Part shown: piece after piece, positions 8,806 to 12,467 of the stretch
Numbering within the stretch: position 1 is the first letter of the stretch
Layout: the number at the start of each line of letters is the position of its first letter
Source: Betaproteobacteria bacterium
GTDB lineage: Bacteria; Pseudomonadota; Gammaproteobacteria; Burkholderiales; Burkholderiaceae
DNA length: 41,534 bases
Direction of reading: 5' to 3'
Assembly: GCA_947378095.1 (NCBI GenBank)
Contig: CANCIL010000004.1
Span: 1-41,534, forward strand
Made by a program: the position numbers and the translations under genes
The notes under the pieces: model-generated
Database searches by the model: none
Seen by the model: the letters and a program-made list of their open reading frames with translations, nothing else
What the model was told of the DNA's origin: nothing

Positions 8806-9996
8806 TTATTTCTTCTGTTTCTTGTAATAACTGCTTAAGTAAATAAGGGCGCCAGCAGTAATAAATACCGGAATCAGGGATCCTAGATTCAGAATATTCC
8901 AGCCCTGCGAAGTAATGAGTGCGCCTGAGCCAAACGAAGTAAAAGCCATCGTTCCAAAAACAAAAAAGTTGATGGCTGCTTGAGCCTTATCCCTCTCTTC
9001 GGGCTTATAGGCTGTCATTGCTAGAGAAGTCGATGCAGTGAATAAAAAATTCCATCCCACGCCGAGCAAAAAGAGTGCAATTAAAAATTGATGTAGATCT
9101 AATCCTGTTAATGCTATCGCGATACAGATGAGATTGAGCGCAACACCAAGCCCCATGATTTTCAGTGTGCCAAAGCGCTGAATTAAGGAGCCGGTAAAAA
9201 ATCCTGGGGCGAACATACCAATCACATGCCATTCCAATACCAGTGCTGTATCTGAAAAAGGCAGTCCACAGATTTGCATGGCTAGCGGGGTGGCGGCCAT
9301 GAGCAAGTTCATCACTCCATAGCCTAGAGCCGCGCCAATCACAGCCACCATAAAAACAGGCTGAGACAAAATCTCCTTTAGGCTTCGGCCGTCTGATAGA
9401 TGATGTTTGGTTTTGAATTCTTCTGGGAAGTGGATGAATTGCATCACGCCAATTCCGATGAAGCCTGCAATAGATAAGGTGAGGTAAGCGCCTAAAAAAG
9501 CCGTATCAAATAGATTTTTTGTCCAGGATGCCAAATTCGGTCCAATGACGGCTCCCAGGATGCCTCCAGCCAGGACCCAGGAAACTGCTTTATCGCGTTG
9601 ACTGAGCTCCGTGAGTTCGGCAGCGGCAAAACGGTAGAGTTGCCCGTTGGCGCTGTAATAGCCAGCGATAAAGGTGCCAGCCACGAGGAGCCAAAAGTTT
9701 TTGCTGATGGCAGCATAGGCGCATAGGAGGGCGGAGAGTACGGCAACCAATAGGCCTAATTGAAACGAGATTTTGCGTCCAAAATAATTTTGAGACTTCG
9801 CCACAATCGAAGTGGAAAAGGCGCCTCCAACGACATAGCCCATAACGGGCAGGGTGGCCATCCAACTTACTGGTGCCAGGCTTAGGCCCACTAAGCCATT
9901 AATGGCGATAAAGGTGACGTTGTTAGTCAGGAAAAGACCTTGGCAAACAATCAGCAACACCAAGTTTTTATTGAGTAGGGGGTGTTTACTGGACAT
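8806..9996 (-). CDS. MFS transporter, 12-helix
   Basis: 396-residue major facilitator superfamily carrier. About twelve hydrophobic helices are visible in two halves separated by a charged loop near residues 195-215 (HFPEEFKTKHHLSDGR). The loop 2-3 signature appears as KSQNYFGRKIS, a degenerate GxxxDRxGRR. Helix 5 has the GAVIGP-type motif (GGILGAVIGPNL), often seen in drug/H+ antiporters and related carriers. The substrate cannot be read from sequence. Monocistronic; its start region lies back-to-back with the icd leader, leaving about 120 bases before the likely icd promoter. Confidence 0.85.
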   Translation of the reverse strand: MSSKHPLLNKNLVLLIVCQGLFLTNNVTFIAINGLVGLSLAPVSWMATLPVMGYVVGGAFSTSIVAKSQNYFGRKISFQLGLLVAVLSALLCAYAAISKNFWLLVAGTFIAGYYSANGQLYRFAAAELTELSQRDKAVSWVLAGGILGAVIGPNLASWTKNLFDTAFLGAYLTLSIAGFIGIGVMQFIHFPEEFKTKHHLSDGRSLKEILSQPVFMVAVIGAALGYGVMNLLMAATPLAMQICGLPFSDTALVLEWHVIGMFAPGFFTGSLIQRFGTLKIMGLGVALNLICIAIALTGLDLHQFLIALFLLGVGWNFLFTASTSLAMTAYKPEERDKAQAAINFFVFGTMAFTSFGSGALITSQGWNILNLGSLIPVFITAGALIYLSSYYKKQKK

Positions 9997-10111
9997 GGAT
10001 CAGAGTTTAAGGCGCTTTTGGGAATCGAGCTCTCTTGGTGGATTCCCTTAAATTGGGCCTCCTCTGCAGTTTTGAGGGGCAAATATGGCATTTTTGCTGA
10101 TGCCGATGATT

Positions 10112-10117
10112 TAAAAT
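10112..10117 (+). promoter_or_regulatory. possible -10 element for icd
   Basis: TAAAAT at 10112-10117, close behind a TG at 10107-10108, without a clear -35. A start near 10124 would give a leader of about 110 bases that contains the two hairpins described below. Confidence 0.35.
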
Positions 10118-10123
10118 AGAAGA

Positions 10124-10232
10124 CTCGCCTCATTGGCAAAGAGCCGCTAAAAGTGGCTTGCAGAATGCAGAACGTGAGAGTGGCAGGGTAAAAACCTGAC
10201 TCTGTAAATTTATCAATATCGAGGAAATATTA
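10124..10232 (+). ncRNA. structured icd leader, probable icd-II RNA motif
   Basis: The 5' leader of icd folds by eye into at least two hairpins. Hairpin 1 is AGCCGC-TAAAA-GTGGCT (10142-10158; six pairs, one G-U). Hairpin 2 is AGAGT, a GG bulge, CAGG, loop GTAAAAA, CCTG, ACTCT (10177-10203; nine pairs). Hairpin 2 ends 29 bases before the ATG, and the ribosome site GAGGAAA follows it. The icd-II motif was described by comparative genomics as a cis-regulatory candidate upstream of NADP isocitrate dehydrogenase in Polynucleobacter. The gene context matches, but I could not compare with the covariance model; left and right limits are approximate. Confidence 0.6.
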
Positions 10233-12467
10233 ATGGCTTCAGAGAAATCAAAGATTATTTACACCCTGACAGATGAGGCGCCCCTTTTGGCAACTTGCGC
10301 ATTTCTGCCGGTCATTCGCACTTTTACAGCTCCCGCAGGAGTAGAGATTGTGAAAAGCGACATCTCTGTAGCCGCACGTATTCTTGCTGAATTCCCAGAG
10401 TATTTAACTGAAGAGCAAAAAGTTCCCGATAATTTGGGCGCGCTTGGCAAGATGACTTTGATGCCAGATACCAACATTATTAAGCTACCTAACATTAGCG
10501 CCTCAGTACCTCAATTGCTGGCTGCGATTAAAGAATTGCAGACTAAGGGTTACAAGATCCCCAATTTCCCAGATGATCCGAAGAATGATGAGGAAAAATC
10601 TATTCGCACTCGATATTCCAAGTGCTTGGGTAGCTCAGTAAACCCAGTCTTGCGCGAAGGTAACTCAGATCGTCGTGCTCCAAATGCTGTAAAACAGTTT
10701 GCTCGTAAGCACCCCCATTCCATGGGTGAGTGGAGTCAGGCTTCGCGTACCCATGTTTCACATATGCATGGTGGAGACTTCTACTCAAGTGAGAAGTCGA
10801 TGACGATGACCAAGGCCTGCGATGTGAAGATGGACTTGGTTACTAAGAGCGGCAAGACCATTGTGCTCAAGCCAAAAGTCTCATTACTCGCTGGCGAGAT
10901 TATCGACAGCATGTATATGAGCAAAAAAGCCTTGTGCGAGTTCTACGAAAAAGAAATCGAAGATGCTTATAAGACTGGCATGATGCTTTCCTTGCACGTG
11001 AAGGCAACCATGATGAAGGTCTCACACCCTATCGTGTTTGGTCATGCTGTAAAGATTTTCTATAAAGACGCTTTTGCGAAACATGCCAAACTCTTTGAAG
11101 AGTTGGGAGTGAATGCCAATAATGGTATGAGCAGCTTGTACGAAAAAATTAAGACTTTGCCTGAATCGAAGCGCGAAGAAATTATTCAAGATTTACATGC
11201 TTGCCACGAGCACCGTCCTGCTTTAGCAATGGTGGATTCTGCTAAAGGTATTACGAACTTGCATTCTCCAAGCGATGTGATTGTGGATGCTTCCATGCCT
11301 GCCATGATTCGTGTTGGCGGAAAAATGTGGGGCGCCGATGGTCGTTTACATGACACCAAAGCGGTTATCCCAGAAAGTACTTTTGCCCGTATCTATCAAG
11401 AAATGATTAATTTCTGTAAGACTCACGGTAACTTTGATCCAACGACGATGGGGACTGTACCTAACGTTGGTTTGATGGCTCAACAAGCAGAAGAGTACGG
11501 TTCGCATGACAAGACTTTTGAGATTCCAGAAGCTGGAGTGGCCCGTATCGTTGCTGATGATGGCACTGTGTTGCTAGAGCAAAATGTAGAAGAGGGCGAT
11601 ATCTGGCGCATGTGCCAAGTAAAGGATGAGCCTATTCGTGACTGGGTCAAGTTGGCGGTAAATCGTGCACGCCTATCTAATACGCCAGCAGTATTCTGGT
11701 TGGATGAGTACCGTCCACATGAGGCTGAGCTCATCAAAAAGGTGAACACCTATTTGAAAGATTATGACCTGAAGGGTGTTGATATCCAGATCATGTCTCA
11801 GACTCGTGCAATGCGTTACACCCTAGAGCGTGTGATTCGCGGCAAAGATACGATTTCTGTTACCGGTAATATTTTGCGTGACTACCTTACTGACTTGTTC
11901 CCAATTATGGAATTAGGTACTAGTGCAAAGATGTTGTCTATCGTGCCATTGATGGCTGGTGGTGGCCTCTTTGAAACGGGTGCTGGTGGATCTGCGCCTA
12001 AGCACGTTCAACAGTTGGTGGAAGAAAATCATTTGCGCTGGGATTCCTTAGGTGAGTTCATGGCTTTGGCTGTATCGCTCGAAGACATTGGTGATAAAAC
12101 AGGTAATGCCAAAGTCAAATTACTGGCACGTACATTGGATGAAGCTACCGGCAAATTGTTAGATAACAATAAGTCACCTTCACCACGCACAGGTGAGTTA
12201 GATAACCGCGGTAGTCAGTTCTATTTAGCAATGTATTGGGCTGAAGCTTTAGCTGCTCAAACAGAAGATAAAGAATTGCAGGCCTACTTTGCACCTTTGG
12301 CTAAATCCCTTGCTCAAAATGAGCAGAAGATTGTGGATGAGTTCAAAGCAGTGCAAGGTAAACCAGCTGACATCGGCGGTTACTATGTAGCGGACTCAGA
12401 AAAGTGCAAAGCGGTGATGCGTCCAAGCGGCACCTTTAATGCTGCTTTGAAGGCTGCTAGAGCTTAG
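10233..12467 (+). CDS. icd: NADP-dependent isocitrate dehydrogenase, monomeric type
   Basis: Oxidative decarboxylation of isocitrate to 2-oxoglutarate with NADPH formation in the TCA cycle. 744 residues, matching the large monomeric IDH-II family (about 740) and not the 45-kDa dimeric enzyme. Typical stretches are the start [21 protein letters not shown], the substrate-binding Ser region [36 protein letters not shown], and the C-terminal [27 protein letters not shown] stands 5 bases upstream of ATG. Monocistronic between a structured leader and a strong terminator. As the main NADPH-producing TCA step it is a plausible control point for the leader RNA. Confidence 0.97.

Follow-up and report, generated by a model that had tools for sequence, protein, structure and literature searches.

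The icd-II motif of Polynucleobacter as a putative icd promoter followed by a rapidly replaced 5′-terminal hairpin leader

A comparison across some 130 relatives suggests icd-II may not be a three-way-junction riboswitch. The left arm of its published outer stem, P1, would be the conserved promoter of icd, and the RNA would be a 5′-terminal hairpin leader of one clade, rapidly replaced and repeatedly rebuilt by Polynucleobacter before this gene; we put the chance that this whole reading is correct at about even. Its published description, which lists 25 unique examples, presents the motif as an orphan riboswitch candidate and associates it with the icd gene (Brewer 2021, PMC8632094). In the literature searched, no later work on icd-II was found.

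The icd locus and the distribution of icd-II

The stretch ahead of icd in the window (the whole 41,534-nt stretch of DNA analysed) is a genuine icd-II copy. The only RNA-family match obtained with cmscan is a full-length one to RF04189 (icd-II) at 10103–10224 on the forward strand (E 3.9e-21, gathering score 99), and no other Rfam family, the earlier icd motif included, matched the window. This bears out the preliminary description, which had seen a probable icd-II motif, likely of Polynucleobacter, ahead of icd and had named the Rfam covariance model as a check. The locus shares gene, genus, position, sequence and the hairpins P2 and P3 with the published motif (PMC8632094), and the host genus is Polynucleobacter, as for named carriers such as P. 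yangtzensis. The earlier icd motif also precedes icd in Proteobacteria and is drawn as a three-stem junction, but differs in conserved sequence, stem number and host class, and is set apart in the description of icd-II (PMC8632094). The icd product is matched by the equivalog model for monomeric NADP-dependent isocitrate dehydrogenase (IDH; TIGR00178). Because the upstream gene is divergent, the icd promoter must sit within the 236-nt intergenic region. The features of the locus are as follows:

8806–9996, − strand: divergent MFS transporter gene, sharing the intergenic region 9997–10232 with icd
10071–10095, + strand: conserved TTT / AAA / TTT blocks spaced by some 10 nt, partly as TTTG-N5-CAAA; candidate activator site (low-substitution positions, consensus)
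10103–10224, + strand: icd-II motif, in the extent of the Rfam model RF04189 (model positions 1–133; cmscan, 115.5 bits)
10107–10117, + strand: TGATTTAAAAT box, the left arm of P1 as published; its conservation and its retention without hairpins suggest the −10 region of the icd promoter (TAAAAT, 10112–10117)
10122–10124, + strand: predicted transcription start, 5–7 nt past the −10 hexamer, placed from the variable, fixed-length linker
10123–10179, + strand: hairpin P2, with base CUCG/UGAG, inner helices CAUU/AAUG and GCAA/UUGC, and a tip hairpin with loop UAAAA (per-pair counts, tree-based test)
10177–10203, + strand: alternative longer P3 with a GG bulge (minimum free energy, MFE); poorly conserved, excludes the P2 base
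10182–10201, + strand: hairpin P3, GGCAGG/CCUG-A-CU, loop GUAAAAA (RF04189 match, per-pair counts, tree-based test)
10209–10222, + strand: published P1 right arm, AU-rich and running into the ribosome binding site; conserved, its changes uncompensated in the left arm
10221–10224, + strand: Shine-Dalgarno GAGG, almost invariant; carriers have it 9 nt ahead of the ATG
10233–12467, + strand: icd, monomeric NADP-dependent IDH, 744 aa (TIGR00178, 1361.8 bits, cut-off 950)

The 3′-end of the icd-II match is spaced 9 nt from the icd ATG in the window, and the same distance to the monomeric IDH gene is found across carriers wherever the contig extends downstream. At E <= 0.001, icd-II occurs in 89 of 151 Polynucleobacter genomes (one per species, some incomplete), with 60 above the cut-off, so that the class within this genus is much larger than the published set. 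Across 399 genomes sampled from the whole family, Polynucleobacter is the only one of 25 genera to carry it (0 of the other 24). Monomeric IDH is present in 127 of the 151 Polynucleobacter genomes. It was not found in the other 24 (for example G063, G069, G104, G121 and G125), even in some near-complete ones, and these may use another type of IDH.

For the comparison, representatives of 93 distinct leaders were aligned, a covariance model was built with the Rfam structure, and all leaders were then aligned to it. The leaders fall into three clades, A (n = 59, including the window), B (n = 28) and C (n = 6, too small for tests). Between clades the inner helices vary in both sequence and register, and whole helices are different. 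Clades A and B being out of register, RNAalifold predicted no pairs when given all 93 sequences together, and clades were therefore treated separately. Covariation was assessed by parsimony on a tree built from the flanks, independent of the RNA, against a null in which each column retains its number of changes but these are redistributed over the branches. As the cross-clade alignment was fitted across clades, the test was repeated within clades, with p-values uncorrected for 14 tests.

The published outer stem and the −10 box

In the published P1, the left arm (10103–10115) pairs with the stretch before and into the Shine-Dalgarno sequence. This complementarity is present in the window, and its CGAU/AUCG portion can pair in most carriers. 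At pairs 6 and 10–13, where the left side is unchanging, 18 pair-breaking changes were counted and none was answered in the left arm. Of 98 sequences, a set that includes three leaders later classed as non-carriers, 37 form pair 1 and 56 form pair 10. Within clades, P1 was no better than the tree null (uncorrected p 0.16 in A, 0.12 in B). Over clades A and B together p was 0.01. Double changes numbered just two and were confined to pair 2, so that this value would reflect a strongly conserved right arm rather than covariation. With almost no compensation apparent among these sequences, the published outer stem gets no support from the comparison.

The central part of the left arm itself evolves very slowly. 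Over the tree of 86 carriers, ATGATTTAAAAT has about 0.25 substitutions per site, against 9–20 or more in its surroundings, 16.6 in the five bases 3′ of the box and 9–13 at third codon positions beyond codon 8. The six-base linker from TAAAAT to the P2 CUC is constant in length in 92 of 93 carriers, though its bases vary freely. The one carrier without this linker is leader L048 (genome G023), in which TTTAAAAT directly abuts CTCGCC.

The box is also found without the hairpins. In eleven leaders without a proper icd-II match, GATTTAAAAT is retained 56–121 nt before the ATG; the distance from box to ATG is 62 nt in G095 and G143, 84 nt in G011, 102 nt in G111 and G016, 109 nt in G120 and G060, and 56 nt in G109. 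The IDH tree places the carriers in one group (support 0.92), with G095 and G143 nested inside it and the other hairpin-less lineages outside. In the leaders of G095 and G143 (L079 and L084), P2 and P3 have been lost, a short hairpin lies in the remaining 62 nt, and the box and the ribosome-binding region are kept. Because it is kept both outside the icd-II clade and in the nested G095/G143 lineage, the box predates and outlives the hairpins.

An invariant box, a free spacer of fixed length and then a hairpin look like a −10 box, a discriminator and the start of a transcript. The comparison strongly indicates that the P1 left arm is the −10 box of the icd promoter, with the transcript running from the foot of P2. 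This possibility was flagged in the published description, whose authors noted that the left shoulder of P1 resembles a −10 region and that the extent of the motif is thus uncertain (PMC8632094). A consensus scan found no sigma-70 promoter ahead of icd because the −35 region is weak, a good −35 box being absent upstream of the −10 box; a weak −35 would fit an activator-dependent promoter. As a general promoter word, GATTTAAAAT was uninformative, with only four copies in this genome, one lying some 46 nt ahead of a small rubredoxin-like frame and one inside a tRNA-like stretch.

Several outgroup lineages (for example G097, G120, G009 and G064), though not all, carry unrelated hairpins at the same position, and the 5′-terminal hairpins in outgroups have a mean z of −0.65, which is suggestive only. 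One outgroup clade (leaders L100, L103, L104 and L106, of G045, G066, G010 and G064) has its own two-hairpin leader past a GATGCTTTAAA(A/C)T box. The second of these hairpins resembles P3, with too few sequences for a homology test.

Hairpins P2 and P3 and the ribosome binding site

The two hairpins that the preliminary description saw close to the ribosome site of icd are both present there, and the pairing among relatives that it proposed as a check exceeds the null. No single base pair was significant in the covariation test across clades (best E 0.16), while at the helix level the paired fraction exceeded the null for P2c, P2d and P3. In clade A, the pairs of P2c are formed in 55–59 of 58–59 sequences and those of P2d in 53–57 of 59, and the outer tip pair is kept in all 59, as G-C, A-U and G-U. 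Within-clade p-values, uncorrected, were 0.012 for P2c and 0.013 for P2d in clade A, and 0.007 for P2d and 0.013 for P3 in clade B; P3 in clade A showed no excess over the tree null (p 0.36). The P2 tip stem has undergone 11 changes and no breaks. Relative to shuffled sequences, the fold of 10122–10203 has a z of −1.95 and that of 10174–10204 a z of −3.0 (0 of 200 shuffles as stable), and the P2 and P3 core has a mean z of −1.65 over the 59 clade A relatives. Together, within-clade p-values of about 0.01 and the fold z in clade A lend P2 and P3 moderate support at the helix level.

Stems have accumulated 5–6.5 substitutions per site on the tree, and the rate at hairpin positions is two to three times lower than in the linker or at third codon positions. 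Within the hairpins, the tip stem and loop (GC-YAAAA-GC) change least, at 2–3 substitutions per site. Internal loop and junctions are no more conserved than the stems, the tip loop being the sole exception, and A-rich loops recur in both P2 and P3.

One of the two hairpins had been drawn with a GG bulge, by pairing AGAGU (10177–10181) with ACUCU (10199–10203) and CAGG with CCUG. This form does arise in silico in the window, but only part of clade A retains its lower helix (one pair in 33 of 58 sequences, a second in 49 of 59), which has a pairing probability of 0 in clades B and C; the form also competes with the P2 base for the same bases. The Rfam pairing of P3, GGCAGG (10182–10187) with CCUG-A-CU (10195–10201), is on these counts the better comparative model.

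The CUC and GAG strands at the base of P2 show 1, 0 and 4 and 2, 4 and 0 changes, respectively, against a stem mean of 6.45. In the MFE structure of the window transcript, CUC pairs with the GAG of the Shine-Dalgarno sequence alongside the GG-bulge P3. An anti-Shine-Dalgarno switch through CUC is attractive, yet no more than 22 of 92 carriers have a probability above 0.2 for this pairing. A leader peptide was rejected, short frames such as MQNVRVAG being unconserved among relatives, as was an intrinsic terminator, none being found on the forward strand. In icd itself, codons 2–8 (10236–10256) have a synonymous-site entropy of 0.00 in clade A, against 0.66 and 1.01 further on; they are nearly invariant at synonymous sites in clade B, and the same holds in near relatives without the hairpins. 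Leader L020 and related clade A leaders contain UUUUUUC-AAUAUU-GAGGAAA, a local hairpin able to cover the Shine-Dalgarno sequence, whose pairing is strengthened by two coupled changes (columns 163 and 168) and which is reminiscent of fourU-type thermometers.

Readings of the leader

We lean slightly towards a fast-evolving, 5′-terminal two-hairpin leader, with the promoter at the P1 left arm, that tunes translation or stability of icd mRNA. RNA polymerase would use TGATTTAAAAT as the −10 region and start at about 10122–10124, the P1 left arm being a signal in the DNA and not part of the RNA. The transcript would open directly with P2, followed by P3 and the AU-rich ribosome-binding region, an order with moderate support. 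The hairpin pair at its 5′-end would set the stability of icd mRNA, its translation, or both. The hairpins may shield the 5′-end against RNase E-type decay, or P2 may keep the CUC strand off the Shine-Dalgarno GAGG or free it to reach GAGG; a small-molecule ligand would not be required. The 5′-terminal stabilising stem-loop of E. coli ompA, likened here by position alone, is similarly a hairpin at the very 5′-end of a transcript, before an AU-rich ribosome-binding region. The carrier without the six-base linker (L048) speaks against the leader model, as its start would fall inside P2.

The published proposal is a three-stem junction closed by P1 that binds a TCA-cycle metabolite or related compound and, by way of P1, masks or exposes the ribosome binding site of icd. 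It draws on a published model and gene association (PMC8632094), on the position of the matches 9 nt before icd, and on the pairable CGAU/AUCG of P1. A riboswitch would be expected to hold a conserved ligand-binding core among variable stems, and here no strongly conserved core was seen in junction or loops, which, apart from that of the tip, change as fast as the stems. P1 changes are almost never compensated and its left arm outlives the hairpins; moreover, the motif is confined to one genus, and the G095/G143 lineage has lost the hairpins and kept icd. The comparison speaks against a classical aptamer, since unpaired positions, the tip loop excepted, are no slower than stems and since a single genus has seen the hairpins replaced or lost; a riboswitch is possible but unlikely. 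The suggestion in the preliminary description that a TCA-metabolite- or NADPH-related signal is sensed finds no support either, with no sequence resembling a ligand core conserved across clades, fast hairpin turnover within the genus and two genomes without the hairpins.

A binding site for a protein or small RNA, for example IDH itself in autoregulation or an RNA chaperone on the A-rich loops, with the ribosome binding site as output, would suit the slow tip stem and loop and the recurrence of A-rich loops in P2 and P3. The synonymous invariance of codons 2–8 in clade A would fit a target over the start codon, but near relatives without P2 and P3 share it, and codon conservation around the start codon is common in well-expressed genes. 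No candidate partner was found, and we consider such a site improbable. That there is no RNA regulator at all, with the conservation due to promoter and ribosome binding site and the hairpins incidental, would agree with the most conserved blocks being the −10 box, the Shine-Dalgarno sequence and the first codons. The slower evolution of hairpin positions relative to linker and third codon positions, the excess of the P2 helices over the tree null and the greater stability of clade A folds than of shuffles argue against this explanation, which is very hard to sustain.

The comparison thus favours a promoter for the P1 arm, a question left open by the authors of the published description (PMC8632094). 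The promoter reading would change the RNA to be synthesised for ligand tests, which should include constructs beginning at P2 in addition to P1, and would lower the prior for metabolite sensing by icd-II.
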